Of a stretch of DNA of 64,000 bases, positions 22,248 through 56,812 are shown piece by piece (position 1 is the stretch's first letter; every line of letters begins with the position of its first letter). Position numbers and translations under genes: made by a program. The stretch covers positions 62,001 to 126,000 of the forward strand of contig JAMLIR010000001.1 in assembly GCA_023954045.1 (NCBI GenBank), read 5' to 3'. The notes under the pieces are model-generated. The model was not told where the DNA came from and did not search any database. It saw nothing but the letters and a program-made list of their open reading frames with translations. The stretch is from Burkholderiaceae bacterium (GTDB lineage: Bacteria > Pseudomonadota > Gammaproteobacteria > Burkholderiales > Burkholderiaceae_E).

Positions 22248-22311
22248 CTGATCCGATTTCCCCGTCAACCCTCGCATCGCGCCGTCGGGCCATCCGCGCT
22301 TCGGCTGCCGC

Positions 22312-23316: not shown

Positions 23317-23326
23317 GACGTTCCTC

Positions 23327-24277: not shown

Positions 24278-24289
24278 CTCAACCTCTCC

Positions 24290-24532: not shown

Positions 24533-24628
24533 GTCTGCCTTCGCATATCTTGTCTCTCCATTCGACGCATCTGCGCCTGGTTCAGGAGACATGGCAGCAA
24601 CTGCATGCTCCTCATGCCGTCCAGATCT

Positions 24629-25918: not shown

Positions 25919-26409
25919 CAGCGGCTTCCTCTGCCCAGGTTCAATGCAAGCGAGACGACAGCCGCCGCCACCAAGAGCGCCAGCCCAACGCTGATTGGGT
26001 ATAGCTTGAAGCCGTAGTCGAGATCGAAGACCGGCAGGGCGAGAACGGAGAACGCCGCGATCGTGTCCCGGCTTGCATAGACGGCAACCGATCCAGCGAC
26101 AATCATGGCGACATCCGCAATGATTGCACCGGCGCGCATGCGTGCGATCGGCAGCACATCAAGCACGAGATGCTCCTTCGATAGCCAGAGCGCGGGCGCC
26201 GCGACCCACACCATCGCAATGAACGCGATGGCGGAAATCTCCTCAACCCAGAACAGGCTTCTTCCGAACAGGTACCTCAGCCCGACCTGCATCACTGCAA
26301 GTCCGCAGATGCCAAGGAGGCCCAGGCCAACGACGCCGGACGCGATCCGGTACGACACGCGAGCCACAGCGTCTGCGCGGTGGTTCGAGGCCTGCGGCCA
26401 TGTCTCCAT
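25918..26409 (-). CDS. dctQ: TRAP transporter small permease (DctQ), island
   Basis: The 163-residue protein has four predicted helices. The family segment FWVEEISAIAFIAMVWVAAPALWLSKEHLVLD lies around positions 55-86. It is the first gene of the minus-strand island operon, divergent from the marR-like gene and the receptor gene. It is coupled to dctM by a one-base overlap. Confidence 0.9.
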   Translation of the reverse strand: METWPQASNHRADAVARVSYRIASGVVGLGLLGICGLAVMQVGLRYLFGRSLFWVEEISAIAFIAMVWVAAPALWLSKEHLVLDVLPIARMRAGAIIADVAMIVAGSVAVYASRDTIAAFSVLALPVFDLDYGFKLYPISVGLALLVAAAVVSLALNLGRGSR

Positions 26410-26452
26410 GTCACCTCTTGGATGTCTGTATTTGAGGTCGGGAAGATAGTAT

Positions 26453-26479
26453 CATCTGGTACCATCCGTCGACCAGATG
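26453..26479. promoter_or_regulatory. Candidate MarR operator in divergent promoter region
   Basis: The inverted repeat CATCTGGT-N11-ACCAGATG lies 44-70 bp upstream of dctQ and 170 bp before the marR-like gene. It is the most regular dyad in this 237-bp gap and is suitably placed to repress the catabolic operon. Binding by the MarR protein is inference. Confidence 0.5.
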
Positions 26480-26646
26480 AGCGTGGTCGGCTGACGTCGC
26501 GGATGCGGCGCGCGCATGGGTCTCGGGCAGGCGGATGCCGCGGTGCAACAATGGCGTCCCAAGCCATTGATGCGCGGCAACGAACGGCGAGAACCGCACC
26601 GCCCAATGCGCGTGAGCAGATTCAGGACATTCGCAGCGTTCAGATC

Positions 26647-27162
26647 ATGAAAACGACGACCCGGGCCAAGGAGCGATCGGACGGAGCACGTCGGAAACCA
26701 GGCAGTGGTCATCGGCCGGCATTCGACAGCGACAAGGCAGCGACGTTTCAGATCGCCGTTCTTTCGAATCTCTTTGCGCGTCCCTTCTACGAAAGTGTTG
26801 GAAGGCATGCGAGGATAAACATCAACGAGTGGCGCCTCATGCTCGCCCTCGATCGGCACCCAGCGCTCAGCCAGGCGGATGTCGGTTACTACACCGGGCT
26901 TCACAAGATGACTGTGAGTCGCGCGGTTCGCCACCTTGTGACCAGTGGCTACGTCGTGGCGCACGACGACGAGACCGACCGGCGAAGAAAGGCTCTATTT
27001 CTGACTGCAAAGGGGGAATCGCTGTGTGATGAAGCCCTTCCCTTGCTCAGAAGGCGGGAGACCATGGTCGGTGCCGGGCTGGCCCCCGCCGAGTTACAGG
27101 AGTTCAAGCGCACACTCGCCGCGATCATCGTGAACGTGCGCGCTTGGCCTGACGTCTTCTAG
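26647..27162 (+). CDS. MarR-family transcriptional regulator (island)
   Basis: The 171-residue protein carries the MarR winged helix (about 60-140): NEWRLMLALDRHPALSQADVGYYTGLHKMTVSRAVRHL, then the wing DETDRRRKALFLTAKG. The N-terminal 35 residues are basic and probably disordered. It lies between the divergent TRAP/E1 operon and the receptor gene, so it is the likely local repressor. The start is uncertain: the ATG at 26647 has a weak ribosome site, and an in-frame ATG at 26551 is possible. The ligand is unknown and may be a phenolic or carboxylate. Confidence 0.85.
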   Translation: MKTTTRAKERSDGARRKPGSGHRPAFDSDKAATFQIAVLSNLFARPFYESVGRHARININEWRLMLALDRHPALSQADVGYYTGLHKMTVSRAVRHLVTSGYVVAHDDETDRRRKALFLTAKGESLCDEALPLLRRRETMVGAGLAPAELQEFKRTLAAIIVNVRAWPDVF

Positions 27163-27209
27163 ACGTATACAACAAGATCGCTGGACCGTTCACCACTGGA
27201 GGTAGACAG

Positions 27210-28196
27210 ATGAGAAAGACTGGTTTTTGGCCCACCGTTGTGGCGTTCGCCTTGATTGCGGCCCCGGGTGCGTCACACGCGGAGAAGTTTCGCCTCGGAC
27301 ACGTCGGACCGGCCGGCGGGATCTACGACAACGTAGCCACAAGCCTGGCCGACAAGGTGGCAAAGGCGAGTGGCGGCAGTGACTCCATCGAAGTATTGCC
27401 AAACGGAGTGCTCGGTGCTCAACCGCAGCTATTGTCGCAACTGAGTGCTGGAACGCTCGACTTTTGGGTCGTGGACACACCGGCAATTACCATCGCGCCG
27501 GCCGGTCGCGACTATCAGGTTCTCTTGGCGCCATTTCTATTTGATAGTCAGGCCCAGTTTCGACGCTTCATGCAAAGCCCGGTGGCCGAGGAAATGGCTG
27601 ACAAGGTTCGCACTGCTATTGGCATCCGCCACTTGGCGGTAGGGGCCGACCAAGCACCCCGTGCACTGTCGACCCGAAAGACGCGGGTGGTAAAACCGTC
27701 CGACCTGGCCGGGCTGAAGGTCCGCGTCCCTGAGACGCCCTTCCTCCTGGACACGTGGAAGGCCTGGGGTGCGAGCCCGACCCCCGTCAAAGCGACGGAG
27801 TTGTTCTCGTCACTTCAATCGGGCTTGGTCGACGGCCAGGAGAACGGGCTGGGTATTTTCCTCGACATGAGCCTGAACGAGGTCCAGCAGTACTTCATCC
27901 AGTTGGACTATGTTCGTTCGGGAGTCTCCATCTTCATGAGCGAGAAGACTTGGCAGAGACTGACACCGGAGAGTCGCGAGAGGATCGCGAAGGCCGCGCG
28001 TGACGTGGGCGTGGAGAGCGCGGCGAAGTTCGGGCCCTACATGGAGGAACTGCGTCAGCGGGCGAAGGCGAAGGGAACGAACATCGTGGAACCGGACGTT
28101 GCGGCATTCCGGGCGGCATCGATGAAGATCGTCTCCGACTTCGACGGAAAGGCATGGCCCAAGGGATTGCTCGAGCGGGTTCGCGCGGTGCGCTGA
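27210..28196 (+). CDS. dctP: TRAP transporter substrate receptor (DctP), island
   Basis: The 328-residue protein has a signal peptide ending in GASHAEK, then the DctP fold. Marks are FRLGHVGPAGGIYDN, VLPNGVLGAQPQLLSQLSAG, the ligand-arginine segment DLAGLKVRVPETP, and SLQSGLVDGQENGLG. GGAGG precedes the ATG. It is transcribed away from dctQM, downstream of the marR-like gene, an unusual split of P from QM. It is the last island gene before the right att repeat. Substrate unknown; a small carboxylate is expected for DctP receptors. Confidence 0.9.
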   Translation: MRKTGFWPTVVAFALIAAPGASHAEKFRLGHVGPAGGIYDNVATSLADKVAKASGGSDSIEVLPNGVLGAQPQLLSQLSAGTLDFWVVDTPAITIAPAGRDYQVLLAPFLFDSQAQFRRFMQSPVAEEMADKVRTAIGIRHLAVGADQAPRALSTRKTRVVKPSDLAGLKVRVPETPFLLDTWKAWGASPTPVKATELFSSLQSGLVDGQENGLGIFLDMSLNEVQQYFIQLDYVRSGVSIFMSEKTWQRLTPESRERIAKAARDVGVESAAKFGPYMEELRQRAKAKGTNIVEPDVAAFRAASMKIVSDFDGKAWPKGLLERVRAVR

Positions 28197-42691: not shown

Positions 42692-44106
42692 GCGACGCCG
42701 AAATGCAGGCCGCCGAGGAAGCCGTGCGGCAGGTCGTCCGGCGTGCGCGCGTCGCGCAGTCCGTCGCCGACGGCTGGTCGCAGGCCCGCGTCGACGAAGT
42801 CGTCGCCGCCGCCGCGTGGGCGATCCTCGAGCCGGGCCGCAACCGCGAGCTCGCGGAACTCGCGGTCGCCGACACCGGCGTGGGCAACGTCGAGGACAAG
42901 GTGCGCAAGAACTACCGCAAGACGCTCGGCCTGTTGCGCGACCTGCACGGGATGAAGACCGTCGACGTGGTCGCCGAATACCCGGAGCTCGGGCTCGTGG
43001 AGATCGCGCGGCCGGTCGGCGTCGTGGCCGCGATCACACCGTCGACCAATCCGGCCGCGACGCCGGCGAACAAGATCCTGAACGCGCTGAAGGCGCGCAA
43101 CGCGATCGTGGTGGCGCCCAGCCCCAAGGGCCGCAGCACCTGCGCGAAGCTGCTCGAGTTCATCCACGCGCAGTTCGACCGAGTCGACGCGCCGCGCGAC
43201 CTGGTGCAGATGCTGCCGGGCGCCATCACGAAGGAGTCCACCGCGGTCCTGATGCGCGCGGCCGACCTCGTGGTGGCCACCGGCTCGCAGAGCAACGTAC
43301 GCGCGGCCTACACCTGCGGCACGCCGGCCTTCGGCGTGGGTGCCGGCAACTGCGCGTCGATCGTCGACGAGACGGCCGACTGCGAGGCCGCGGCCGAGCG
43401 CATCGTCCGCTCCAAGACGTTCGACAACGCGACGAGCTGCTCCTCGGAGAACAGCGTCGTCGTCGTGCGCGCCGCGCGCGACCGGCTGCTCGCGGCACTT
43501 GCCGCCCGCGGCGTCGTGCTGCTCGACGACGCCCGCAAGGCGACGCTGCAGCAGGCGATGTGGCCCCGCGGAAAGCTGTCGTCAGACGTGATCGGCAAGT
43601 CGGCGCGCGAGATCGCGGCGGTCGCCGGCTTCGACGACCTCGCCCGGCGCTCCGACCTGCGCGTGCTGATGGTCGCCGAGTCCGACTACGGGCCCGCGCA
43701 CCCGTTCTCGGGCGAGAAGCTCTCGCCGGTCCTCGCGCTGTACGTCGCGCACGACTTCGACGACGCCAGGCGCATCGTCGAGGGCGTCTACGGCTACATG
43801 GGCGCCGGGCACTCGGTCGGCCTGCACAGCGCGATCGACGGTCGCGCCGTCGAGCTCGGCCTGCGCCTGCCGGTGGCACGCGTGATCGTCAACCAGGCGC
43901 ACTGCATCGCCACCGGCGGCAGCTTCGACAACGGCCTGCCGTTCTCGCTGTCGATGGGATGCGGCACCTGGGGTCGCAACAACTTCAGCGACAACATGAA
44001 CGTGCGCCACTACATGAACGTGACCCGGGTCGCGCGCCCGATCGCCGAGCGCGTCCCGGAGCTCGAGGACCTGCTCGGGACGTTCTTCGCAAGGCACGGA
44101 CGCTGA
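42688..44106 (+). CDS. CoA-acylating aldehyde dehydrogenase (SauS/AdhE-N-like)
   Basis: The 472-residue aldehyde dehydrogenase is of the acylating branch. It has GVVAAITPSTNPAATPANKIL, AFGVGAGNCASIVDETAD, the nucleophile region FDNATSCSSENSVVV (catalytic Cys about residue 251) and the C-terminal GSFDNGLPFSLSMGCGTWGRNN. These place it with sulfoacetaldehyde dehydrogenase (acylating) SauS and the N-terminal domain of AdhE. It interconverts an acyl-CoA and an aldehyde with NAD(P)H. It is coupled to tctA (ATGA) and lies 11 bp before an acyl-CoA ligase. With that ligase it could reduce an imported carboxylate to its aldehyde, as SauT plus SauS do for sulfoacetate. Confidence 0.88.
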   Translation: MSDAEMQAAEEAVRQVVRRARVAQSVADGWSQARVDEVVAAAAWAILEPGRNRELAELAVADTGVGNVEDKVRKNYRKTLGLLRDLHGMKTVDVVAEYPELGLVEIARPVGVVAAITPSTNPAATPANKILNALKARNAIVVAPSPKGRSTCAKLLEFIHAQFDRVDAPRDLVQMLPGAITKESTAVLMRAADLVVATGSQSNVRAAYTCGTPAFGVGAGNCASIVDETADCEAAAERIVRSKTFDNATSCSSENSVVVVRAARDRLLAALAARGVVLLDDARKATLQQAMWPRGKLSSDVIGKSAREIAAVAGFDDLARRSDLRVLMVAESDYGPAHPFSGEKLSPVLALYVAHDFDDARRIVEGVYGYMGAGHSVGLHSAIDGRAVELGLRLPVARVIVNQAHCIATGGSFDNGLPFSLSMGCGTWGRNNFSDNMNVRHYMNVTRVARPIAERVPELEDLLGTFFARHGR

Positions 44107-44117
44107 CGCCACGAACG

Positions 44118-45698
44118 ATGAGCATCGAGCACCACCACCCCGACGATCCGCGCACCGTCGCCGCGCTGGTCGATGCGCGCGCCGACGACCGCGGCGAAGC
44201 GACCTATCTGGTATCCACCGAGACCGGCCGCACGCTCGGCTTCGCCGCGCTGCGGTCCTCGTGCCGGCGCATCGGCGCGCTGCTCGACCGGCACGGCGTC
44301 GGGCGCGGCGAGAACGTCGCGATCGTGATGCCCAACGGCAGCGCGACGGTGCGGCTGCTCCTGGGGGCGATGTACTCGGGCCGCGCAGTCGTCCCGGTGA
44401 ACCTTCTGTCGCAGCCCGAGCAGATGCGCTACGTGCTCGACCACGCCGGATGCCGGCTGATCTTCGCGTCGCCCGACTGGGCGCCGCGCCTGCGCGAGAC
44501 GCTCGCCGGCAGCGACCCGGCGCCGCGGATCGTCGAGGTCGCGCCCGAAGCCGACGTGGTGCCGGGCGAGCCCGACGAACCCGGCGGGCAGGCGGCGACG
44601 CGCGGCGCCGACGCGCAGCCGGCCGAGGTCTCGCCCGGGGACCTCGCGCTGCTGATGTACACCTCGGGCACGACCGGCAAGCCGAAGGGCGTGATGCTCA
44701 CGCATGCCAACCTCGCCGCGAACGCCCATGCGATCAGCCGCGAGCACCGGCTCGGCCCCGCCGACCGCGTCGCGGCGGTGCTGCCGCTGTACCACATCAA
44801 CGCGTTCGCGGTGACGATGCTCGCGCCGCTCGCGCACGGCGGCAGCCTCGCGATCTCGCCGCGCTTCTCTGCGGCACGCTTCTGGCCGATGGTCGCCGAG
44901 CACCGCTGCACCTGGATCAACGTGGTGCCGACGATCATCAGCTACCTGCTCGAAGGCGATGCGCCGTCCCGCGCGCAGCTGTCGGCGATCCGATTCTGCC
45001 GTTCCGCGTCGGCGGCCCTGCCGCCCGAGCACCATCGCGCCTTCGAGGCGAAGTTCGGCATCGGCATCGTCGAGACGATGGGACTGACCGAGACCGTCGC
45101 GCCGGCCTTCAGCAATCCGATCGACGCGGCGGAGCGCCGCGTCGGCTCGGTCGGCCGTCCCTCGGGTTGCGAGGCGCGCATCGTCGACGAGCACGGCGCG
45201 ACGCTGCCCGACGGCGAAACCGGGGAGATCCTGATCCGCGGGCCGCAGGTTACCTGCGGGTACTACCGCAACCCGGATGCGACCCGTTCCGCGTTCCTCC
45301 ACGGCTGGCTGCGCACCGGCGACCTCGGCCGGCGCGACGCCGACGGCTTCTTCTACGTGACCGGGCGGATCAAGGAACTGATCATCAAGGGCGGCGAGAA
45401 CATCGCGCCGCGCGAGATCGACGAGGTTCTGCTGCGCCACCCGGCGGTGGTCGACGCCGCCGCCGTCGGAATGCCCGACAGGCACTATGGGCAGGAGATC
45501 CTCGCCTGCGTCATCGTCCGGGACGACCGGCGGGCCGCCAGCCCGCGCGACGAGGATGCGCTGCGCGAGGAACTGCGCGCGTTCTGCGCGACGCACCTCG
45601 GACGCTACAAGACGCCCAAGGAGATCCGCTTCGTCGACGAGCTGCCCCGCGGCCCCTCCGGCAAGGTCCAGCGCCTGAAGCTGCTCGAGCCCTCCTGA
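44118..45698 (+). CDS. AMP-forming acyl-CoA ligase (SauT-like candidate)
   Basis: The 526-residue ANL-superfamily enzyme has P-loop YTSGTTGKPKGVMLTH (about residues 182-197), VETMGLTET, GYYRNPDATRSAF, LRTGDLGRRDADGFFYVTGRIKELI and the catalytic lysine in PRGPSGKVQR near the C-terminus. It forms an acyl-adenylate and then the CoA thioester. It lies 11 bp after the acylating aldehyde dehydrogenase and in the transporter operon, so it likely activates the imported acid. Sulfoacetate is one candidate from gene order; a simple fatty or aromatic acid is not excluded. Confidence 0.88.
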   Translation: MSIEHHHPDDPRTVAALVDARADDRGEATYLVSTETGRTLGFAALRSSCRRIGALLDRHGVGRGENVAIVMPNGSATVRLLLGAMYSGRAVVPVNLLSQPEQMRYVLDHAGCRLIFASPDWAPRLRETLAGSDPAPRIVEVAPEADVVPGEPDEPGGQAATRGADAQPAEVSPGDLALLMYTSGTTGKPKGVMLTHANLAANAHAISREHRLGPADRVAAVLPLYHINAFAVTMLAPLAHGGSLAISPRFSAARFWPMVAEHRCTWINVVPTIISYLLEGDAPSRAQLSAIRFCRSASAALPPEHHRAFEAKFGIGIVETMGLTETVAPAFSNPIDAAERRVGSVGRPSGCEARIVDEHGATLPDGETGEILIRGPQVTCGYYRNPDATRSAFLHGWLRTGDLGRRDADGFFYVTGRIKELIIKGGENIAPREIDEVLLRHPAVVDAAAVGMPDRHYGQEILACVIVRDDRRAASPRDEDALREELRAFCATHLGRYKTPKEIRFVDELPRGPSGKVQRLKLLEPS

Positions 45699-46204: not shown

Positions 46205-46705
46205 TCAGATCATCAGGCCCGAGCCGCCCGCGGCGCTGGCCATCGCCTCGCGCCCGGCCTGCAGTCCCGCCTCGGCGTGGGCGTCGACGGCGGATGGCGC
46301 CCCGCGGTGCACGATGCTCGAGCTGCGCACCCGGCCCTGGTCCACGGTCAGCACGAGGTCGGGGTAGCGGCGCGGCGCTGCGCCACAGCCCTGCTCGGCG
46401 TCGTCCTGCCGGAAAGCGTGCAAGGTGCCGCTGAACCAGGTCGCGAAGATGCGCTCGCCCGCGAACGGGAACAGGTTCTGCAGCGCGACCGGCGAGTTGT
46501 CGGCCCACTGGCCGGCCAGACCGGCCAGGTAGAGCCACCCGTCGCGGATCTCCCAGCGCGCCGCGTAGCCGCGGCCGTCGGCGCAACCGCCGCCGTGCAG
46601 CCGCGGGCGCTGCCCGATCAGCTCGAAATAGGCCTCCAGCGGCTGCTCGACGAGCAGGAACCGCTTGTCGCGAAACGCGAGCGTGTCGCCATGGTGCGCG
46701 CTCAT
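46205..46705 (-). CDS. Hypothetical protein, last gene downstream of ubiX
   Basis: The 166-residue protein has no signal peptide or membrane segment. It is rich in Trp, His and Gly (FELIGQRPRLHGGGCADGRGYAARWEIRDGWLYLAGLAG; FPFAGERIFATWFSGTLHAF). It reads as a small beta-rich soluble protein that I do not recognise. It follows ubiX on the same strand after 155 bp, so it may or may not belong to the carboxylation operon. The ATG at 46705 has GGGGGTGG close upstream; a GTG at 46711 is possible. Confidence 0.55.
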   Translation of the reverse strand: MSAHHGDTLAFRDKRFLLVEQPLEAYFELIGQRPRLHGGGCADGRGYAARWEIRDGWLYLAGLAGQWADNSPVALQNLFPFAGERIFATWFSGTLHAFRQDDAEQGCGAAPRRYPDLVLTVDQGRVRSSSIVHRGAPSAVDAHAEAGLQAGREAMASAAGGSGLMI

Positions 46706-46860
46706 CTCCACCCCCTGCAGCGCCTCGGTGCTCCTCCTGCGCCGACTATCGCTTCGCGCGCCTGCGCGTGACGACCCGGGAGCGGACGAAGCGGGGCGCC
46801 GCCCCGCCGAACGGTAGGCGGCCGTGGCGCAGGCGCCCCGGGGGGCGAGGCTCCGGCGCT

Positions 46861-47571
46861 TCAGCGCGATGCGACGCGCAGCGTCTCGCGGGTGGCGGCG
46901 CGCTCGACGGCCCGCGGTTCGCCAGCGCCCCGTTCGCCAGCGCCCCGTTCGCCCGCCGCCGGCTCGCCCGCGACCGCCTCGCCGTCGGGCCGGCCGGCCG
47001 CGCCCCGGGCGTGCCCGCTCCAGCGGCGGAACAGGCGGTGCTCGACCCCGACCTGGTCGAGCGCCTTGCCGATGCTCTGGTGGACGATGTCCATGATCGA
47101 CTCGGGCTGGTGGTAGAAGGCCGGCATCGGCGGCAGGATCGTCGCGCCGCAGTCAGCCGCGCGCGCCATCAGCTCGAGGTGCCCCTTGTGAAGCGGCGTC
47201 TCGCGCACCATCAGCACCAGCGGGCGGCGCTCCTTCAGCGTCACGTCCGCGGCGCGCACGACGAGGTTGTAGGTGAACGAATTGGCGATCGCCGACAGCG
47301 TCTTCACCGTGCACGGCGCGACGATCATCCCGCGGGTGCGGAACGATCCGCTCGCCACCGCCGCGCCGACGTCCTTGTTCGGGTAGACGACGTCGGCGAG
47401 TGCGCGCACGTCGTCGAGCGAGTACTCGGTCTCGATCGACAGGTTCATCCCGGCGGCCTCGCTCAGGATCAGGTGCGTCTCCTGCCCCAGCTCCCTCAGG
47501 ACGCGAAGCATCTCGACGCCGTAGACGACGCCAGTGGCGCCAGTGATGGCCACGACCAATGGCAAGCTCAT
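46861..47571 (-). CDS. ubiX: UbiX-type flavin prenyltransferase
   Basis: The 236-residue protein has the UbiX start VVAITGATGVVYGVEMLRVL, FMN-contact region VASGSFRTRGMIVAPCTVKTLSAIANS, and MRETPLHKGHLELMARAADCGATILPPMPAFYHQP. UbiX makes prenyl-FMN, the cofactor of UbiD decarboxylases, such as the one encoded at 49582-51084. The catalytic part ends near residue 192. The remaining 40 residues are an Ala/Gly/Glu/Arg-rich tail with repeated AGERGAGE, encoded by short direct repeats, and are not part of the family. It is 21 bp after the CBS-domain gene. Confidence 0.93.
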   Translation of the reverse strand: MSLPLVVAITGATGVVYGVEMLRVLRELGQETHLILSEAAGMNLSIETEYSLDDVRALADVVYPNKDVGAAVASGSFRTRGMIVAPCTVKTLSAIANSFTYNLVVRAADVTLKERRPLVLMVRETPLHKGHLELMARAADCGATILPPMPAFYHQPESIMDIVHQSIGKALDQVGVEHRLFRRWSGHARGAAGRPDGEAVAGEPAAGERGAGERGAGEPRAVERAATRETLRVASR

Positions 47572-47592
47572 CTGGGGTTTCCTTCTCGAGGT

Positions 47593-48276
47593 TCACGCGG
47601 CCTGCGCATGGCGCCGCGCGTCGACGGATTCGATCACCGCGAAGCCCGCCGCCTCCAGCGCGCCGACCACCAGCGTGACGTCGTCGGCGTGGAAGCGGAT
47701 GATCACGCGCTTTTGCGGGTAGTCGTCGCCGGCCTGCGCACCGTGCGGGCCGATCGGGTAGATGCCCTGCAGCACGGCGCCTGCCGCCTCGGCGACGTCG
47801 GAGATGCGTCCGAGCACGCCGGGCCCGAGCCGCGTCGGCGCCAGCGTCACCCCGCTGCGCCGCTCCCAGGCGCCGAGGCAGTGCGCCGCGAGCTGGAAGA
47901 TCTCGTTGGCCGAGATCACCCCGGCCACCCGCTCTCCGTCCATCACCGGGAACTGCGCGACGCCCAGCTCCTGTCCTCGCCGCAGGCAGTGCTCCATCGT
48001 GTCGCCCACCTGCACCGTCGCCGGATTGCGGACCATCACGTCGCGCACCCTCAGGCGCGTCACGAAGAACGCGAACTCGTCCGGATCCTGGGTGCGCAGC
48101 ACGAACTGGCCCATGCGCAGCAGGTTGGCGCGCGTCACCAGGCCGCGCAGGCGCCCGTCGTCGACGACCGGCAGCGCGTGCAGGTTGTTGTCGCTGATCA
48201 GCCGCTTGGCCTCGGAAACGAGCGTGTCGCTCGGAATCGTCATCGGATCCGGATGCATCCAGTTGCGCACCAGCAT
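47593..48276 (-). CDS. CBS-pair protein with C-terminal ACT-like segment (PpsC-like, phenylphosphate synthase third component)
   Basis: The 227-residue, 24-25-kDa protein has two CBS motifs: MLVRNWMHPDPMTIPSDTLV to about 60, and VRDVMVRNPATVQVGDTM to about 135. A tail resembling an ACT domain follows (KRVIIRFHADDVTLVVGALEAAGF). Size and CBS pair match the stimulatory subunit 3 of Thauera aromatica phenylphosphate synthase, whose other subunits are encoded in this operon. An AGGAG site precedes the ATG, 5 bp after the preceding gene. It may sense adenylates and tune the kinase reaction; this is inference from CBS function. Confidence 0.8.
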   Translation of the reverse strand: MLVRNWMHPDPMTIPSDTLVSEAKRLISDNNLHALPVVDDGRLRGLVTRANLLRMGQFVLRTQDPDEFAFFVTRLRVRDVMVRNPATVQVGDTMEHCLRRGQELGVAQFPVMDGERVAGVISANEIFQLAAHCLGAWERRSGVTLAPTRLGPGVLGRISDVAEAAGAVLQGIYPIGPHGAQAGDDYPQKRVIIRFHADDVTLVVGALEAAGFAVIESVDARRHAQAA

Positions 48277-48281
48277 CGCCG

Positions 48282-49544
48282 CTACTCCTGCGTGGCGACC
48301 GCGCGCGCCGGCTCGCGCGCGCTGCGGTACAGCCGCACGAACTCGTCGACTGCGGCCCGCGCGAACTCGGGCGTGTAGAGATGCAGTGGCACCTCCCTGA
48401 GGCGCTCGGGCTCGGCCAGCCCTTGCCTGAGGCGCGCCACGAACGCGGCGTCGGCCACCGGGTCGTAGATCGGCCGCCCCTCCCGATCGAGCGACGACCA
48501 GCCCTTCGTCGGGACCAGGAAGGTCCAGGGCCCGGTGGCGCGGTTGAGCCGCTGCGCGATCACGTCGGCCGCCTGCCGCAGCTCGTCGGCGGTCGTGCGC
48601 ACCTGCACGCGAAGCTTGTCCTGCACGTACTGCGGCCGGTCCTTCGTCTTCTCCAGCATGTCGGCGCGGCCGCCGTACGAAAGGATGTCCAGCCCGCAAG
48701 GCGCGAGCACCATCGGAATGCCGGTCTCGACCGCCGCCATCAGCCGGTCGGGCCCGGGATCGCGATTGCCCTTGAACAGGTGCTCCATCACGCCGCCGAT
48801 GCAGATGTCGAGCACCCCGTGGAACGCCCCGTCGCGAATCATCTCCTCCATCGCCCGGTCGCCCTTGCCCTGCGCGTGGCAGACGATCGGCGTGAACCCG
48901 GCTTCCTCCAGCATGCCGAGCGCGGACTGCACCGCCATCTCGCCGAATCCGAACGACGAGACCGCGACGCAGGGCTTGTCGAAGCGGATGTTCGTGCCCT
49001 GCGTCATCTCGACCATCCCGCAGATCGCGCCGACCGCATTGACGATCTGCGCCCGCAGCAGCGGGTTCATCTTGACGATGTCGAGCACCGTGTGGTGCAT
49101 CGTGATGTCGCGCGTGCCGACGTACTGGTCGATGTAGGCCGGGTGCGCGGCCATCGGCGAGGCCATCAGCTTGGGCATCCCGAACGGCAGCCGCTTCATG
49201 ATCGAGGTGGCGACCAGCGTCGCCGTGCCGCCCCCGATGCCGATGATGCCGTGCACCCTGCCTTGCCGGACCAGGTCGTCGACGATCGCCGCCGCGCCGC
49301 GAATCTGGTTGTTGGTCGCCGTGTCGCGGTCGCTGCGGTACTTCTCGCGCACCACCTCGATCGGCAGCCCGCCGCGCGCCGCCACGTCCTCGGTGCGGAT
49401 GTCGCCCGGGAACGGCGGCGGCTCCTCCATGCTGAAGTCGAGCAGGATCGGCTCGTGGCCGCGCGCGGCGATGAGGTCCTTCACGAACACGATGTCCTCG
49501 CCCCGGGTGTCGAGGTTGCAGACGATCACGATCCCTTTTTTCAT
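48282..49544 (-). CDS. Tm-1-like ATP-binding domain protein (UPF0261)
   Basis: The 420-residue protein is of the Tm-1/UPF0261 family. It begins KKGIVIVCNLDTRGEDIVFVKDLI and contains GIIGIGGGTATLVATSIMKRLPFGMPKLMASPMAA, GAICGMVEMTQG and SSFGFGEMAVQSALGMLEEAGF. The family binds ATP; its bacterial reaction is not established. It is embedded between ubiD (37 bp) and the CBS gene (5 bp) on the same strand, so it is part of the carboxylation operon. The described Thauera phenol operon has no such gene to my knowledge. Confidence 0.88.
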   Translation of the reverse strand: MKKGIVIVCNLDTRGEDIVFVKDLIAARGHEPILLDFSMEEPPPFPGDIRTEDVAARGGLPIEVVREKYRSDRDTATNNQIRGAAAIVDDLVRQGRVHGIIGIGGGTATLVATSIMKRLPFGMPKLMASPMAAHPAYIDQYVGTRDITMHHTVLDIVKMNPLLRAQIVNAVGAICGMVEMTQGTNIRFDKPCVAVSSFGFGEMAVQSALGMLEEAGFTPIVCHAQGKGDRAMEEMIRDGAFHGVLDICIGGVMEHLFKGNRDPGPDRLMAAVETGIPMVLAPCGLDILSYGGRADMLEKTKDRPQYVQDKLRVQVRTTADELRQAADVIAQRLNRATGPWTFLVPTKGWSSLDREGRPIYDPVADAAFVARLRQGLAEPERLREVPLHLYTPEFARAAVDEFVRLYRSAREPARAVATQE

Positions 49545-49581
49545 CGCCGCGCGCTCCCCTTCTCCGTTCCCCCTCCCCCCT

Positions 49582-51084
49582 TCACTTCTTCTTGACCTCG
49601 GGCCGCGTCAGCCGCCCGATCATGTCGGCGACCGGGCTCGCGCCGACGAAGCCGTAGTCGTTCCAGCGGTCCGAGACCTTCTGCAGCATCGCGCGATCCA
49701 TGAAGATCTCCTGCGGCTTGCTCTTCCACTCGTACGGCGTGCACGCGTCGAGGATGATCCGGCTGGTGATGTCGCGCGCCTCGATCGGCAGCCCCGGGTC
49801 GAGCGGCGTCGAGCGTCCGCGGTCGATGATCTGCGCCGAGCGCTTCGGGTCGAAGCGGGTGGCCAGCGCCCACCAGACCCGGTCCATGTCGTCGGCCTCG
49901 ATGTCGTGGTCGACGACGATCACGCCCTTCACGCCGTAGTGGCCGGTGGTGCTCGCGATCACCGCGTTGCCGACGTGGTTCGAGTGCCCCGGGTACATCT
50001 GCTTGACCGACACCACGGCCCAGAACCGGCCGGTCGCCGCCGCGGGCAGGTACACGCTCTGGATGCCGGGCACCTTCATCGTCTCGAGGTCGTACCACAG
50101 CGCCCCGGTGCGGTTGAGCGACTGGATCATGTGGATGTCGTTGATCGGCTTGCCGACCGTGGTCGACCAGAACACCGGCTTGTTGCGGTGGAGAATGCGC
50201 TTCACGCGCAGCACCGGCTTCGGGTAGTCCTTGCCCTTGTTGCCCGAGTAGTAGCCCGTGTACTCGCCGAACGGTCCCTCGTCCATCAGCTCGTTCGGGT
50301 CGATCCAGCCCTCGGCGATGATCTCGGCGTTGGCCGGCAGCGTGAGCCCGGTCAGCTCCGACTTGAACACCGGCACCGGGCGGCCGCGCAGCGCGCCCGC
50401 CACGTCGTATTCGTCGGTCTGCGAGCTCACCAGCGTCGAACCCGCGAGGAACAGCACCGGATCGCAGCCGACGACCGCTGCCGCCGGCATCAGCTCGCCG
50501 CGCTCCTGGTACTTCTTCATGTGCATGTCGCCATGCTTGCCCTTGATGATCTGCGACCCCAGGATGTTCTTGCCCAGCACCTGCGAGCGGTAGGTGCCGA
50601 GGTTGGTCCAGCCGGTGTCCGGGTCCTGCGTGACCAGGTAGCCGGCCGTCACGAAGAAGCGCCCGCCGTCGTCCGGGTAGAACCACGGCACCGGGAACTT
50701 CTCCAGGTCGACCGCGTCGCCCTCGATCACGTTCTCCATCACCGGCGGGTTGTCGACGAAGGTCGGCTTGACCATCTGCTTGGTGGTGAGCTCCATCCAC
50801 TTGCGCGAGAGCTGGCACATCGTCAGCGACGGATCCTGCTCGAGCGCGATCGCGATGCGCTGCGGCGTGGTGAACGCGCTGGTGAACACCGGGATCGAGT
50901 TCCCCTTGACGTTCTCGTAGAGCAGCGCCGGACCCTTCTGCTCCTCGTTCACCTTCGAGATGTGGCACAGCTCGTACTTCCAGTCGACCTCGGTCTTCAC
51001 CCGATGCAACTGGCCGTTGGCCTCGAGCGCCGCGATGTAGCTGCGCAGGTCGTCGATCAGTCCCACTTCCGTCCTTGCGTTCAT
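49582..51084 (-). CDS. UbiD-family (de)carboxylase, phenylphosphate-carboxylase-like
   Basis: The 500-residue prenyl-FMN enzyme keeps the catalytic triad pattern: R166 in NLGTYRSQVLG, then E269 and E274 in EGPFGEYTGYY. It also has PGHSNHVGNAVIAST and the C-terminal RPEVKKK. Phenylphosphate carboxylase subunits PpcA and PpcB of Thauera are UbiD proteins of this size. Lying directly after ppsB and ppsA homologues, it probably carboxylates the phosphorylated phenol to 4-hydroxybenzoate or a related acid. Only one UbiD is present here. No PpcC- or PpcD-like gene is seen. A CGGAGC site supports the ATG at 51084. Confidence 0.92.
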   Translation of the reverse strand: MNARTEVGLIDDLRSYIAALEANGQLHRVKTEVDWKYELCHISKVNEEQKGPALLYENVKGNSIPVFTSAFTTPQRIAIALEQDPSLTMCQLSRKWMELTTKQMVKPTFVDNPPVMENVIEGDAVDLEKFPVPWFYPDDGGRFFVTAGYLVTQDPDTGWTNLGTYRSQVLGKNILGSQIIKGKHGDMHMKKYQERGELMPAAAVVGCDPVLFLAGSTLVSSQTDEYDVAGALRGRPVPVFKSELTGLTLPANAEIIAEGWIDPNELMDEGPFGEYTGYYSGNKGKDYPKPVLRVKRILHRNKPVFWSTTVGKPINDIHMIQSLNRTGALWYDLETMKVPGIQSVYLPAAATGRFWAVVSVKQMYPGHSNHVGNAVIASTTGHYGVKGVIVVDHDIEADDMDRVWWALATRFDPKRSAQIIDRGRSTPLDPGLPIEARDITSRIILDACTPYEWKSKPQEIFMDRAMLQKVSDRWNDYGFVGASPVADMIGRLTRPEVKKK

Positions 51085-51110
51085 GTCTGCTCCGTTGTGC
51101 GAACCATTGC

Positions 51111-52238
51111 CTAGTTGACTTTCTTGCCTTGCAGGAGGCTCGAGAGGATGTAGTCCATCGCCGAGCCGGCCGACCCGGTCACGGCCGGCTGGCCGCGGCC
51201 GGCCCAGACGGTCTCCGGACGCGCCTGGAGGATGAAGATGTTTCCGCCGGAGGGCAGGTCCTTGTCGACCGCCCACTCGATGTCCATCGGCATCCCGTAG
51301 TGCTTCTCGATCTGCTTGCCCATCCAGGCCAGCTCGGTGATCTCGTCGTCGATCAGCGACTGCACCTTCTGGCGCTCGAAGGGCACCTCGACCGCGCGCG
51401 AGGTCTGCGTCTTCGGGTCTACCGTGTAGCAGAGCTCCTTGCAGGAGATCTTCCTGTCGATGATGTCCAGCGTGATCTTGTTGACGACGAAGTGATCGGG
51501 GGTCACTTCGCCCGAGACCACAGACTCGCCGAACCCGAAGTTCGAGTCGATGACGATCACCGAGCGGTCCCCGTTGGCCGGGTGGATCGTGAACATCACG
51601 CCCGCGGTGAACGAGTTGGCCATCTTCTGCACGCCGACGCTGATCGCCACTTCGCGCTCGGAGAAGCCCTTGTTCGCCCGGTAGGCGATCGCGCGTGCGG
51701 TGTACAGGCTCGAGATGCAGCGCCGCACGTGGGCGAGCACCTCGTCGACGCCGCGGATCCAGAGGAACGTGTCCTGCTGGCCGGCAAAGCTCGCACCCGG
51801 TAGGTCCTCGGCGGTCGCGCTCGAGCGCACCGCGACCGGCACCGCGGGAAGCCCGCAGCGCAGGCCCAGCTTGCGGTAGCACTCGGCGACGAGGTCCTCG
51901 ATCTCGATCGGGAACGGATGGGACTCGATCGCCGCGCGGATCGACGCACTCGTGCGCTCGAGCGCGTCGAGGTCGGTCGCATCGACGCGCGCCAGCATCG
52001 CGGACACCTCGCGTTCGAGCCCGGACTGCGCCATGAAGCTGCGGAAGCCCTCGGTGGTGAGCGCGAAGCCCGGCGGCACGCGCACGCCGGCGTGGATCAG
52101 CTCGCCGAGCGACGCGCACTTGCCGCCGACCAGCGGCACCGAGTCCTTCAGGCACTCCTCGAACCAGCAGACCTTCGGCAGGCCCGCGCGCGGGCCGCCC
52201 GCCGCGAGTCCGCCGATGGTCTCCGCCAGGTTACCCAT
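51111..52238 (-). CDS. ppsB: Phenylphosphate synthase subunit PpsB-like (PEP-synthase N-terminal, ATP-binding)
   Basis: The 375-residue (40-kDa) protein equals only the N-terminal ATP-grasp part of PEP synthase: VGGKCASLGELIHAGVRVPPGFALTT, VAVRSSATAEDLPGASFAGQQDTF, and FILQARPETVW near the end. It lacks the phosphohistidine and PEP-binding domains. In Thauera, protein 2 (40 kDa) supplies the ATP-dependent pyrophosphoryl transfer to protein 1. The ppsA homologue ends 9 bp upstream. Length and truncation point fit this two-protein design exactly. Confidence 0.92.
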   Translation of the reverse strand: MGNLAETIGGLAAGGPRAGLPKVCWFEECLKDSVPLVGGKCASLGELIHAGVRVPPGFALTTEGFRSFMAQSGLEREVSAMLARVDATDLDALERTSASIRAAIESHPFPIEIEDLVAECYRKLGLRCGLPAVPVAVRSSATAEDLPGASFAGQQDTFLWIRGVDEVLAHVRRCISSLYTARAIAYRANKGFSEREVAISVGVQKMANSFTAGVMFTIHPANGDRSVIVIDSNFGFGESVVSGEVTPDHFVVNKITLDIIDRKISCKELCYTVDPKTQTSRAVEVPFERQKVQSLIDDEITELAWMGKQIEKHYGMPMDIEWAVDKDLPSGGNIFILQARPETVWAGRGQPAVTGSAGSAMDYILSSLLQGKKVN

Positions 52239-52247
52239 CGCCGGTCC

Positions 52248-54083
52248 TCAGCGCGCGATCGTGACCGCGCCCGTCGAGCCGTCGACGCGCACCCGCATGC
52301 CGGTCTTGATGATCTTCGACGCGTGGCCGGTGCCCACGACCGCCGGCATCCCGTACTCGCGGCAGACGATCGCGGCGTGGCTCATCACGCCGCCGACGTC
52401 GGTGATGCAGGCTCCGATCTTCGCGAACGCCGGTGCCCAGGACGGCGAGGTCGTCGGCGCGACCAGGATCTCCCCCTCCTGCAGCTGGCCGACCTCCCCC
52501 ACCGTCCTGCACACGCGGGCCCTGCCCTCGATCACGCCTGGGCTGCCGGCGAATCCCTTCAGCTCGGTGATGGTGTCGGGATCCGCGACTTCCTGCACCG
52601 ACGCCCAGTCGGCGAGCGACTTGTTCGTCACGCCCCAGAGGACGATCGTGAACGGCTCCTGGATCACCTCGGGTGCGGTGCCGATCGCCGGCGGCGCGCT
52701 CCACTCCTTGAACTTCTGCATCACGCCTTTGCGCCAGACGATCTCCTTCGGCCAGGTCGCGGTTCCGCGCGGCGTGACGCCGGTTGCCCAGGCGGTGACG
52801 ATGTCCCACAGCGCCGACTTGATCTCGTCGCGCCGGAGCAGCCAGAGGTCCTCGACGTCCTCGATGACGCCGTGCTCCTTCATGATCGCGCCGACCTCGC
52901 GCATCTTGTTCCAGAACACCGAGTGGAACCAGTGCTCGACGTAGAACAGGTGGTTCTCGACGTACGGGAACACGGTCTTCGCGCAGCCGAGCAACTCGTC
53001 GAACTGCTTGCGGTCCTCGTCCTTCTCGATCAGGTTGCGGTACTCGGCGGTGATCCGGTCGCGCTCGGCGCGCACCTTGTCGGTCGGCCGATCGATGCCC
53101 TGGCCCTGCTTGAGTTTCGTGATGTAGGTCGCGATTCCCGAGAGCGGCACGTTCATCTGGTCGTTCCACGAGCGGTCGTGGTGGAACCAGCCGGTGCCGG
53201 TCGAGATGTTGAACCACGGCTCGCGCGCGAGGTTCAGCGAAGTCAGCCACTCGACGCCCTTGGGAAGCTTCTTCAGCGCCGCCTCGACGTCGGTCCACTC
53301 GGGGCTGAACGTCACCACTTCGTCGACGCCCAGTTCGATCGCGCGGCGCGCGAGCTTCTTCAACTCCTCGTCGGGCTGGTACATCATCACGTCGATCCCG
53401 GAGATCATCTGCGTGACGCGCTGGGTCGGGATGCTCGGGAACAGCTTCTGCACGAAGTCGAGGAAGAACACGTAGGCCGCGTACCCGAGGTTCAGGAACT
53501 CGAAGTGGTACTGCCAGCACTTGATCCCGAGGTTGATCAGGTCGTCGTAGTTCTTCAGCAGGTGGTAGCCGTGCGACTCGCCGAGCGCCTCGGTGACCAC
53601 CGACATGTCCTCCATGTCGGCCAGCCGCGGGATCTTCAGCGCCTCGAGCTCGCGGATCGTGGCCTCCATCTTCACTTTCCACTTCGCCTCGAGCGCATCC
53701 CAGTTCTTGTAGTAGTAGCCCGCGCGCTCCATGAAGTTGGGCACCCGCTTGCCGATCTCCTCGGGGTCCTTCACCGGCACCGGCGAGATGTAGACGTAGC
53801 CGTTGATGATCCGGTGGTCGACGCCGCGCACCGGCGGCACCATGAAGATCCGGTTGTTGAACTGCGACAGGGCCAGGTACCAGGCTTCGTCCCAGATCGT
53901 GTCGAACGGATAGAGCGGCTCCGGGTAATGCAGCCCGTCGTAGAACCAGAACGTCTCCTTCTCGTACTGATTGCGGACGGCGTCGTCGGTCACGAACTGG
54001 TACTGGTACGGATACATCCGCTCCCAGCCTTCGGTTCCGGGAATCGCGTTGGCCTTGACGTCGTGCGGCACTGGAAATTTCAT
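52248..54083 (-). CDS. ppsA: Phenylphosphate synthase subunit PpsA-like (phosphohistidine subunit)
   Basis: The 611-residue (70-kDa) protein resembles the central part of PEP synthase. A long N-terminal, Trp/Tyr-rich region (1-490) is presumably the phenol site. A PEP-utilising mobile domain follows (about 520-611) with GGVMSHAAIVCREYGMPAVVGTG. The histidine is residue 569, the same number that I recall for the phosphorylated histidine of Thauera aromatica protein 1. It takes the beta-phosphate of ATP via PpsB and phosphorylates phenol. It is the first gene of the operon, 80 bp from a sigma-54 promoter. GGGGAGC precedes the ATG. Confidence 0.93.
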   Translation of the reverse strand: MKFPVPHDVKANAIPGTEGWERMYPYQYQFVTDDAVRNQYEKETFWFYDGLHYPEPLYPFDTIWDEAWYLALSQFNNRIFMVPPVRGVDHRIINGYVYISPVPVKDPEEIGKRVPNFMERAGYYYKNWDALEAKWKVKMEATIRELEALKIPRLADMEDMSVVTEALGESHGYHLLKNYDDLINLGIKCWQYHFEFLNLGYAAYVFFLDFVQKLFPSIPTQRVTQMISGIDVMMYQPDEELKKLARRAIELGVDEVVTFSPEWTDVEAALKKLPKGVEWLTSLNLAREPWFNISTGTGWFHHDRSWNDQMNVPLSGIATYITKLKQGQGIDRPTDKVRAERDRITAEYRNLIEKDEDRKQFDELLGCAKTVFPYVENHLFYVEHWFHSVFWNKMREVGAIMKEHGVIEDVEDLWLLRRDEIKSALWDIVTAWATGVTPRGTATWPKEIVWRKGVMQKFKEWSAPPAIGTAPEVIQEPFTIVLWGVTNKSLADWASVQEVADPDTITELKGFAGSPGVIEGRARVCRTVGEVGQLQEGEILVAPTTSPSWAPAFAKIGACITDVGGVMSHAAIVCREYGMPAVVGTGHASKIIKTGMRVRVDGSTGAVTIAR

Positions 54084-54465: not shown

Positions 54466-54527
54466 GCGCCGGCCATGTGGCGCGCCTAGAAGTGGCAGCT
54501 TCGGCCCAGCAACGCGGCAGCGAGGCG

Positions 54528-56345
54528 ATGACCAGGCTCCGTGGCTATGACCACGCGGACAACGAGGACCTGCGCGCGCAGGTCCACTTCTGCGCCGACA
54601 CCGGGCAGATCTGGCTGCACGAGCACCGGATGCTGCTCGTGCACGCCGAGGCGCAGGCCAGCCTTCGCAAGGAACTGATCGACACGCTCGGCATGGATCG
54701 CGCGCAGGGGCTGCTCACGCGGATGGGCTATGCGTCGGGGGTTCGCGACGCCGAGCTCGCGCGGGCGCGTGCCGAGAGCCGCGACGACCTCGACGCGTTC
54801 ATGACCGGGCCGCGGCTGCACACGCTCGAAGGGATCGTGCGCGTCGTGCCCGTCAGGCTCGAGATGGATCGCGCCGCCGGCCGCTTCTACGGCGAGTTCA
54901 TCTGGGAGAACTCCTGGGAAGGCCAGTGGCACCGGCACTTCTACGGCACGCACTCCGAGCCGGTCTGCTGGACGCAGATCGGCTACGCGTGCGGCTACAC
55001 CTCCGCATTCATGGGGCGCCCGATCCTCTACAAGGAGGTCGAGTGCGTCGGGATGGGCAACAACAACTGCCGGATCATCGGCAAGCCGATCGAGGAGTGG
55101 CCCGACGCCGACGAGCACAAGCACTTCTTCAACCGCGAGTCGATCGCCGAACAGCTGTTCGACCTGCAGACCCAGGTCACGCAGCTGCGCTCGACGATCG
55201 GCGACAAGGAAAAGCTCGCGGCCGACATGACCGGCAACTCGCCCGGATTCCGTGCCGCCTACGAGCTGCTTCGGCAGGCCGCGAACACGCGGATCACCGT
55301 GCTGCTGCTCGGCGAGACCGGCGTCGGCAAGGAGCTGTTCGCGCGCGCGCTGCACGAGATGGGGCCGCGCGCGGCGCGGCCGTTCGTCGCGGTCAACTGC
55401 GCGGCGATTCCGCACGACCTGGTCGAGTCCGAGCTGTTCGGCGTCGAGAAGGGTGCCTACACCGGCGCGCTGGTGTCGCGCCCGGGGCGCTTCGAGCGCG
55501 CCGACGGCGGGACGCTGTTCCTCGACGAGATCGGCGACCTGCCGATGCCGGCGCAGAGCAAGCTGCTGCGGGTGCTGCAGGAGGGCGAGGTCGAGCGGCT
55601 GGGCGACCAGAAGACGCGCCGCATCGACGTGCGCCTGGTGGCGGCCACCAACAGCGACCTGTCGCGGCTGGTCAAGGAGGGACGGTTCCGCTCGGACCTC
55701 TACTACCGGCTGAACGCCTGGCAGATCGACATCCCGCCGCTGCGCGAGCGCAAGGAGGACATCGGGCTGCTGGCCAAGCACTTCCTCGAGAAGCACTGCG
55801 CGATCCACGGCAAGAAGCTGCGCGGCTTCACCGACAAGGCCAAGCGCGCGCTGCTGAACTACGCCTGGCCCGGCAACATCCGCGAGCTGCAGAACATGGT
55901 CGAGCGCGGGGTGATCCTCGCGCCGAGCGGCACCCGCGTCGAGGTCGGCCATCTGTTCCCCTCTTACGCCGACGAGCGCGCGCGCGAGTTCGGCCTCGAC
56001 GTCCACGGCAGCCTCGACGCGCACCGCTGGGAGACCGGCCGCGAGCTCTGCGAAGCGGTGTTCAACGGCGTGATGACGCTCGACCAGGTCGAGGCGATGC
56101 TGCTCGAGACGGCGGTGGACAAGGCGCGCGGGAACCTGTCGTCGGCCGCGCGCATGCTCGGGATCACGCGCCCGCAGCTCGCCTACCGCCTGAAGCGCCT
56201 GCACGAGGGCGACGAGGCGCGCTCCGACGCCGCGTCCGCCGCGCCGGCGACGGCGACAGGCGCGGCCCCGGCCCTGGGCGCGACCGCACCGGCGACGGCG
56301 GGACCGCCGGCCGGGTCGGCCCGGCCGACCCTCGCCGGCCGATGA
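54528..56345 (+). CDS. DmpR/MopR-type phenol-responsive sigma-54 activator
   Basis: The 605-residue (from ATG 54528) activator has an XylR_N plus V4R sensor domain (1-190), an AAA+ domain (about 225-465) and a Fis-type HTH ([23 protein letters not shown]). The AAA+ part has Walker [15 protein letters not shown] in place of GAFTGA, and [13 protein letters not shown]. The sensor keeps the zinc ligands C147, E170, C173 and C181, equal to MopR C155/E178/C181/C189 with a constant offset of 8. H98 and W126 line up with MopR H106 and W134, which contact phenol. It is divergent from the ppsA operon. An in-frame GTG at 54477 is an alternative start. The Ala/Pro-rich tail after the HTH is unusual. Confidence 0.93.
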
Positions 56346-56812
56346 GCGATCCGCTCGAGGAACGGGTGCTCGCCTACCTGCGCGAGCATCGCGTGATGAC
56401 GCTGGCCACGCGCGGCGACCACGGTCCCTGGGCGGCCGCCGTGTTCTACGTGAACGACGGGTTCGAACTGTGCTTCCTGTCGGCGCCTTCGACGCGCCAC
56501 TGCACCGACATCGCGGCGCACGCCCGGGTGGCCGCGACGATCCAGGAAGACTACGGCGACTGGGCGGCGATCCGGGGAATCCAGCTCGAAGGCGTCGCCC
56601 GCGAGCTCGACGGCGACGACGCCGAACGGGCGCGCCGGCTCTACGGCGAGAAGTTCCCGATCGTCGGCAAGCTCGCGCAGGCGCCGGCGGAGATCGCCGC
56701 AGCGTTCGCGAAGATCCGCTGGTACCGGATCGTTCCCGACCGCCTCTGGTTCATCGACAACTCGGTGCGCTTCGGGCACCGCGCCCAGGTCATTGCGGCG
56801 CCGCAACGCTGA
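56342..56812 (+). CDS. PNPOx-fold flavin/pyridoxamine-oxidase-like protein
   Basis: The 156-residue split-barrel protein has VLAYLREHRVMTLATRGDHGPWAAAVFYVNDGFELCFLS and a C-terminal WYRIVPDRLWFIDNSVRFGHR. These are typical of the YhbP/PNPOx-like group binding flavin or haem. Its ATG overlaps the TGA of the phenol regulator (ATGA), so the two are co-translated. Any role in phenol metabolism is unknown. Its 3' end overlaps the convergent yedK gene by 23 bp. Confidence 0.8.
   Translation: MSDPLEERVLAYLREHRVMTLATRGDHGPWAAAVFYVNDGFELCFLSAPSTRHCTDIAAHARVAATIQEDYGDWAAIRGIQLEGVARELDGDDAERARRLYGEKFPIVGKLAQAPAEIAAAFAKIRWYRIVPDRLWFIDNSVRFGHRAQVIAAPQR

Follow-up and report, generated by a model that had tools for sequence, protein, structure and literature searches.

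We analyzed a 64,000 nucleotide stretch of a Burkholderiaceae bacterium genome (contig JAMLIR010000001.1, positions 62,001 to 126,000; hereafter the window) that contains an operon in which predicted phenylphosphate synthase genes are joined to a single UbiD-family carboxylase gene and to a gene for a UPF0261 (Tm-1-like) protein. Among related loci, this UPF0261 gene and the genes for the phenylphosphate carboxylase subunits PpcA, PpcC and PpcD exclude each other, and either set of carboxylase genes can be seen as a cassette that is exchanged for the other behind the same synthase and regulator type. The operon likely serves phenol degradation, and the recurrence of this replacement in two bacterial phyla suggests a second route from phenol to 4-hydroxybenzoate. 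Tentatively, we propose a second type of phenol carboxylase in which PpsAB(C), one UbiD and a divergent, phosphoryl-cleaving or phosphoryl-transferring UPF0261 protein would replace PpcA, PpcC and PpcD, carried as a portable cassette by Betaproteobacteria and strict anaerobes. We consider this full proposal possible while leaning somewhat against its holding in every part.

Two exchangeable carboxylase gene sets

The six genes of the operon all lie on the minus strand in the order ppsA-ppsB-ubiD-UPF0261-CBS-ubiX and are separated, from ppsA to ubiX, by 9, 26, 37, 5 and 21 bp, so the coordinates bear out the gene order, single strand and gaps of 5-37 bp given in an earlier note on this DNA. Specifically, ppsA (52248..54083) codes for a predicted phenylphosphate synthase component (NF006152, 1246.6 bits against a cut-off of 723; PF00391) with the swivel-motif histidine H569, and ppsB (51111..52238) codes for the ATP-binding component of the synthase, a lone PPDK_N domain (PF01326, 390.6 bits) that agrees with the split-off ATP half recognized in that note. 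As in phenylphosphate synthase, the phosphohistidine site and the ATP-binding half are thus encoded by separate adjoining genes. The ubiD gene (49582..51084) codes for a single predicted carboxylase with three UbiD domains (PF20695, PF01977 and PF20696), which scores 565.6 bits with the phenylphosphate carboxylase beta model TIGR02724, above the cut-off of 469 (a PpcB from one of the type I operons described below reaches 992.4), and 193.9-194.3 bits with the alpha model TIGR02723, far under its cut-off of 564.6. Residues R166, E269 and E274, which we take to be the R-E-E triad, are present in this UbiD; these residues and the PpsA histidine had been listed earlier and are all in the sequence. 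The UPF0261 gene (48282..49544) contains both family domains above cut-off (PF06792 N-terminal and PF23189 C-terminal). The gene behind it (47593..48276) codes for a protein with two CBS stretches, labeled here as a candidate third synthase component (PpsC) because a CBS gene sits after ppsB in the annotated type I operon, and the last gene, ubiX (46861..47571), codes for a flavin prenyltransferase (NF004685, 246.4 bits, above cut-off, residues 5-186). The C-terminus of this UbiX is about 50 residues longer than the family model, being unmatched after about residue 186; most relatives match it over only about 80% of its length.

A PpsA scan of one genome per species gave 274 relatives, from which the best 80 loci were selected together with flanks of up to 10 kb. 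These loci (L numbers below) are the nearest relatives by PpsA, come mostly from metagenome assemblies, and together with the window make up 81 rows. The ppsA-ppsB-ubiD-UPF0261 order is observed in 35 of the 81 rows, window included, indicating that the arrangement is not a matter of chance; the full six-gene order is observed in 29, and some rows that fall short of it are cut by contig ends. Type I operons (26 rows) have the order CBS-ppcB-ppcD-ppcA-ppcC-ubiD-ubiX, with 24 of the 26 showing ppcA, ppcC and ppcD and the other two, L059 and L070, where the locus ends after UbiD, assigned by UbiD only. Type II operons (36 rows including the window) contain UPF0261 and lack ppcA, ppcC and ppcD altogether, while type III operons (five rows) have a coenzyme A (CoA) ligase gene at the UPF0261 position. 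The remaining rows are cut off, seven after a type II UbiD and seven before any UbiD. One type II locus, L056, was typed by its UPF0261 gene and deviates in gene order because a UbiD gene follows at a distance of about 8 kb on the same contig. Gene names in type I were checked with NCBIfam on examples and against the annotated plasmid of Azoarcus sp. KH32C, whose operon contains ppcB, ppcD, ppcA and ppcG and is without UPF0261.

Of the loci, 63 extend at least 4.5 kb beyond ppsA in the downstream direction; none of them carries both UPF0261 and ppcA, 35 carry only UPF0261, 24 carry only ppcA, and four, all of them type III, carry neither (Fisher p 1.3e-13, kinship among loci ignored). None of the 26 type I rows, which have PpsAB as well, contains UPF0261. 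Since related loci are not independent, the PpsA tree weighs more than this p value; types I and II are moreover partly defined by the genes under comparison, and the UbiD clades provide an independent split. On the PpsA tree the type (I versus II/III) changes at least seven times by a quick method, and the well-supported branches alone force six changes for type I. The UbiD tree has two clades (100/100 support), one of type I and one of type II, the latter including the window UbiD and all type III proteins; type I proteins are at least 82% identical to one another and those of types II and III at least 80%, with 49-57% across the clades. Furthermore, in L067 and L071 the type II genes are followed by ubiX and other genes of the type I kind, and L033 falls within a type I PpsA group. 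Given the type changes, the two UbiD clades and these three loci, the gene sets behave like cassettes, and their exchange behind the same synthase and regulator type is our best argument that both do the same job.

The source assembly (4.02 Mb, 50 contigs) is 97% complete, and neither the six-gene run nor, above cut-off, the rest of this genome contains ppcA, ppcC or ppcD. The best match of the alpha model in the genome is the operon UbiD itself, which is under the cut-off; the gamma model (TIGR02725) has no match in it, and the best delta match (TIGR02726) is 117.8 bits against a cut-off of 281.95. The two sub-cut-off delta matches are 37-38% identical to a type I PpcD and we presume that they are probably KdsC. 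The genome has one UPF0261 gene and three UbiD genes, and the two UbiD proteins from outside the operon are 30-31% identical to the operon UbiD and 28% to PpcA. The absence of PpcC and PpcD from the operon, pointed out in the earlier note, thus extends to PpcA, and a complete ppc set was not found above cut-off in the rest of the genome either.

The PpcA, PpcC and PpcD models were also run against 43 genomes, namely the source genome, 34 of type II, five of type III, that of L056 and two Aromatoleum controls. No model was above cut-off in any of the 41 genomes with a single-UbiD operon or a close variant (source genome included), whereas both controls were above cut-off for all three. Under the cut-off, three type II genomes have PpcA-like proteins scoring 341-355 bits, and a PpcD-like match of 222 bits occurs in one. 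A UPF0261 search of 30 genomes (24 of type I, five of type III and L056) found the family in 10, comprising eight of type I, one of type III and L056; identity to the operon copy is 80% in L056 and 27-32% in the others. When 399 genomes of the order were searched with both proteins, six contained PpsA at 82% identity or more, and four contained a UPF0261 of at least 89% identity, in each case adjoining ppsA. The other two PpsA genomes are a type I genome with a 30% UPF0261 on another contig and one cut at a contig end and without UPF0261; 22 of the 399 have UPF0261 copies at 27-37% only. As four of the six PpsA genomes overlap with the 80 loci, the chief value of this search is in testing the association starting from UPF0261. 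In regard to the cut-off rows, a close UPF0261 is found on another contig in four genomes (at least 84% identity) for the seven rows with a type II UbiD, in four genomes (at least 83%) for the seven undecided rows, and in none for the two cut-off type I rows. Cut-off rows without a close UPF0261 are assemblies where the contig end cuts the operon, among them L049, whose PpsA falls with those of type I in the tree.

One locus, L040, is by its record from Thermodesulfobacteriota, and of 395 genomes searched in this phylum 69 contained PpsA. From the better matches (PpsA identity 55-70%) 20 regions were chosen by hand. Eleven of the 20 have ubiD without ppcA, ppcC and ppcD, and all eleven have UPF0261, with the operon copies showing 35-38% identity and one showing 57%. 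Within the stretches fetched, the three regions with ppcD, ppcA and ppcC lack UPF0261, another five lack both ubiD and UPF0261, and the last contains a distant UPF0261 but no ubiD. The nearest ubiD in L173 and L174 is upstream on the opposite strand, and L187 has a ubiD-ligase-UPF0261 group upstream of ppsA. Of the 11 single-UbiD regions, 10 also contain, ahead of UPF0261, a CoA ligase like that of type III (57-66%). Because the two occur together there, we infer that the ancestral single-UbiD set probably held both genes, with types II and III each having kept one. The suggestion in the earlier note that UPF0261 stands in place of the ppc genes thus gains a regular partnership in two phyla; its consistency across related operons holds for the 35 rows and fails for the five type III loci, which belong to one lineage.

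Several further features of these loci were observed. Type II records include two Myxococcota (L057 and L064), one Xanthobacteraceae (L054) and one Acetobacteraceae (L058) assembly, by transfer or by misbinning. A NUDIX hydrolase gene lies between UPF0261 and CBS in seven of the 36 type II rows (L013, L025, L046, L048, L051, L058 and L081) and, likewise between these genes, in the strict-anaerobe regions L173 and L174. One genome (G055) is the source of both L036 and L048; each of these pps loci has a type II UbiD, and the genome contains two close copies of UPF0261 (84 and 88%). A CTP-dependent riboflavin kinase domain (PF01982) occurs in 20 of the 26 type I rows, for example at 19726-20154 of L022, and perhaps supplies flavin mononucleotide (FMN) for the UbiX cofactor.

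The UPF0261 protein and its proposed role

The AlphaFold2 model of the operon UPF0261 protein (predicted local distance difference test score 91.2) gave fold matches to 3wrw and 3wrx (tomato Tm-1) and to 9mpy. The closest solved bacterial relative is 9mpy, the UPF0261 protein Saro_1862 with bound acetovanillone, which very probably is MarK, a single-component aromatic kinase; in the passages available, MarK is described as the single-component kinase of the acetovanillone pathway (PMC13101465). The description of UPF0261 in the earlier note as a protein of unknown reaction is thus overtaken, and since this relative binds acetovanillone and is very probably MarK, the role of the operon protein points to aryl phosphate chemistry. 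Of the catalytic or chaperone role that had been offered, this favors the former and speaks against the latter. The UPF0261 copies linked to pps and UbiD form one clade (100/99 support) that includes the operon protein, while 9mpy is in a separate, very probably MarK-type clade with L087 and L111 (100/100) to which the operon protein does not belong. In the pps-linked clade E251 is replaced by G (once by A) and G229 by D, both of which are constant in 36 of 36 other aligned UPF0261 proteins; this suits a changed reaction. At 19 positions at least 95% of the 57 family members aligned have the same residue, and the operon protein retains these. An additional UPF0261 copy, from another clade and with E251 and G229 kept, lies some kb upstream of ppsA in L173, L174, L178, L179 and L180, and adjoins a further ubiD in L173 and L174.

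In Thauera the delta subunit, PpcD, converts phenylphosphate to phenolate, which is then carboxylated by the alpha, beta and gamma subunits, as stated in the passages available (PMC7500099, PMC6114531). UPF0261 is the sole new component of type II, as UbiD, UbiX and the synthase all have type I counterparts. Since the missing task is phosphate removal and the family handles phenolic substrates, we propose that UPF0261 removes or transfers the phosphate ahead of UbiD. The regulator and sigma-54 promoter described below would switch the operon on with phenol, and PpsAB(C) would make phenylphosphate. UPF0261 would bind phenylphosphate and cleave or transfer its phosphoryl group, with phenolate passing to a UbiD loaded with prenylated FMN (prFMN) that would use CO2 to carboxylate it at the para position, yielding 4-hydroxybenzoate; the prFMN cofactor would come from UbiX. 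The phosphoryl acceptor could be water or ADP, hydrolysis being the simpler version and transfer to ADP being energy-saving and thermodynamically doubtful. That a protein of this clade takes over the phenylphosphate handling of PpcD (with PpcA and PpcC) beside the predicted synthase and a single UbiD/UbiX is, in our judgment, a nearly balanced question, falling just short of even.

Several observations weigh against this assignment. The five type III loci keep a UbiD of the type II clade with a CoA ligase instead of UPF0261, and their UbiD has no unanimous column that differs from a 97%-conserved type II column. No UPF0261 match was found in four of the five type III genomes, all metagenome assemblies, and one has a 28% copy. 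The type III UbiD thus apparently works without UPF0261, unless another protein stands in, and UPF0261 may be dispensable. A metallophosphatase gene is present in four of the five type III loci; either another phosphatase substitutes there, or UPF0261 is helpful yet not essential. The presence of ligase and UPF0261 together in 10 of the 11 strict-anaerobe regions also means that UPF0261 could serve a later step. In addition, the correlation between UPF0261 and UbiD distances is weak (r 0.31, 33 loci), the identity of 9mpy as MarK is one that we infer, and phosphate removal by the UPF0261 fold is so far a proposal. D309, considered as a third clade-specific residue, was rejected since the six other anaerobe copies carry it too.

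The kinship with 9mpy could also mean that the cell has in UPF0261 a second kinase for phenol, of the MarK kind, which would form aryl phosphate from ATP and offer another affinity or substrate range beside PpsAB. A cluster in L120 (4509-9975), likely for a hydroxyphenylethanone pathway, fits this idea in that a 9mpy-like UPF0261 (54%) stands at the expected place of the kinase, with no PpsA or PpsB match, grouped with genes for a biotin carrier, a PYC_OADA carboxylase-domain protein and a HAD phosphatase. However, ppsA and ppsB precede ubiD in all 35 rows of the window order, and UPF0261 tracks the UbiD clade rather than PpsAB, being absent from 26 of 26 type I rows that have PpsAB. With 9mpy in another clade and two otherwise constant family residues replaced in this one, we regard a second kinase as unlikely. 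Less probable again is a non-catalytic partner of UbiD, which by analogy with LpdD might be a subunit, a substrate carrier or a helper in prFMN maturation. The position of UPF0261 9-176 bp after ubiD (between match edges) in the 35 rows showing both would suit such a partner, and LpdD is a precedent for UbiD helpers in the part of its account available (PMC10865409); retention of the 19 family-constant residues argues against it, as does the type III UbiD, which shows no fixed change where the partner is missing. Least probable is action after carboxylation, for instance on 4-hydroxybenzoate, by which UPF0261 would pull an unfavorable equilibrium as the type III CoA ligase might: in type III the ligase gene stands where UPF0261 would be, and in 10 of the 11 anaerobe regions it precedes UPF0261, but their co-occurrence in those 10 shows that they are not plain substitutes.

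Regulator, promoter and neighboring genes

Divergent from the operon is a gene (54477..56345, plus strand, predicted start) for a XylR_N/V4R/sigma-54 activator of the phenol-sensor type (PF06505, PF02830 and PF00158), which reaches 601 bits with the MobR model, under the cut-off of 999. A sigma-54-type -24/-12 sequence, TGGCACgccgaTTGCA, is located at 54179-54164 on the minus strand, 96 bp upstream of the ppsA start. Allowing at most two mismatches, 74 of the 81 rows have such a sequence 48-122 bp ahead of the ppsA match, and in each of these at most four of 100 shuffles of the same stretch were as good; none was found within the 160 bp scanned in L017, L046, L048, L058, L067, L061 and L040. 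Going by sequence, the activator adjoins a -24/-12 promoter sequence as in phenol-regulated sigma-54 operons, and regulator type and promoter sequence fit a phenol response. The regulator is followed by a pyridoxamine-phosphate-oxidase-like gene (56342..56812, plus strand; PF01243) that has a match in 70 of the 81 rows.

Three other parts of the window were examined. A 168 residue reading frame with a coding-like base pattern and without a Pfam match lies 3' of ubiX on the same strand (46205-46711, minus) and has a match among the 80 loci in L002 only (78%). At 42700-45698 (plus) an acylating sulfoacetaldehyde dehydrogenase gene (NF047625, 728.7 bits, above cut-off) and then a gene for an AMP-forming ligase stand behind genes resembling a tripartite tricarboxylate transporter; they probably serve sulfoacetate use and have no relation to phenol. 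The stretch from 21453 to 28196, where third-position GC of the reading frames is 0.70-0.76 relative to about 0.94 in the surroundings, is likely an acquired island.

Comparison with known systems

Phenol clusters with pps genes and one PpcB homologue have been reported for Geobacter metallireducens and Desulfatiglans anilini in the passages available (PMC6114531, PMC1924859), and a different mechanism of phenol carboxylation has been suspected for these strains (PMC6114531). The alternative phenol carboxylase put forward in the earlier note therefore stands as a distinct single-UbiD type without PpcA, PpcC and PpcD, and does not stand as a novelty in its single ppcB per cluster (PMC6114531, available in part); only the UPF0261 part is new. 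The listings and passages of the literature contained no report of a UPF0261 partner, of ppcACD being excluded by it, of cassettes repeatedly exchanged or of the two-phylum clade. The available parts of the Geobacter and Desulfatiglans cluster accounts name no UPF0261, which was not looked for in these two strains, and place alpha and delta candidates of D. anilini elsewhere in its genome; other members of the phylum of L040 carry UPF0261. The UPF0261 loci thus offer one candidate protein for phenol carboxylation in strict anaerobes with a single PpcB, and this would explain their missing ppcC and ppcD. Under the proposed reading, fewer enzymes would suffice to fix CO2 onto phenol. The widespread and little-studied UPF0261/Tm-1 family also gains a concrete candidate aromatic substrate and, if the proposal is true, a second reaction besides aromatic phosphorylation.

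Relative to the Thauera/Aromatoleum operon, which has the order ppsA-ppsB-CBS-ppcB-ppcD-ppcA-ppcC-ubiD-ubiX, the operon described here shares the regulator type, PpsA (80-89% in type I loci), PpsB, the CBS protein, a PpcB-like UbiD, UbiX and the sigma-54-type promoter sequence. It differs in being without PpcA, PpcC, PpcD, the third UbiD and the riboflavin-kinase gene, in having UPF0261 added, in a UbiD that is 49-57% identical, and in a CBS gene that lies after ubiD rather than before it. Tomato Tm-1 (3wrw, 3wrx) is described as a virus-resistance protein in the part of the source available (PMC5028733); unlike it, the operon protein has no TIM-barrel domain. With Saro_1862 (9mpy) of Novosphingobium aromaticivorans the operon protein shares the UPF0261 fold, 30% identity, the family-constant residues and a setting of aromatic phosphorylation and carboxylation; it belongs to another clade and has the counterparts of E251 and G229 altered. 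Finally, MarK replaces a two-component kinase, whereas the operon described here keeps PpsAB.

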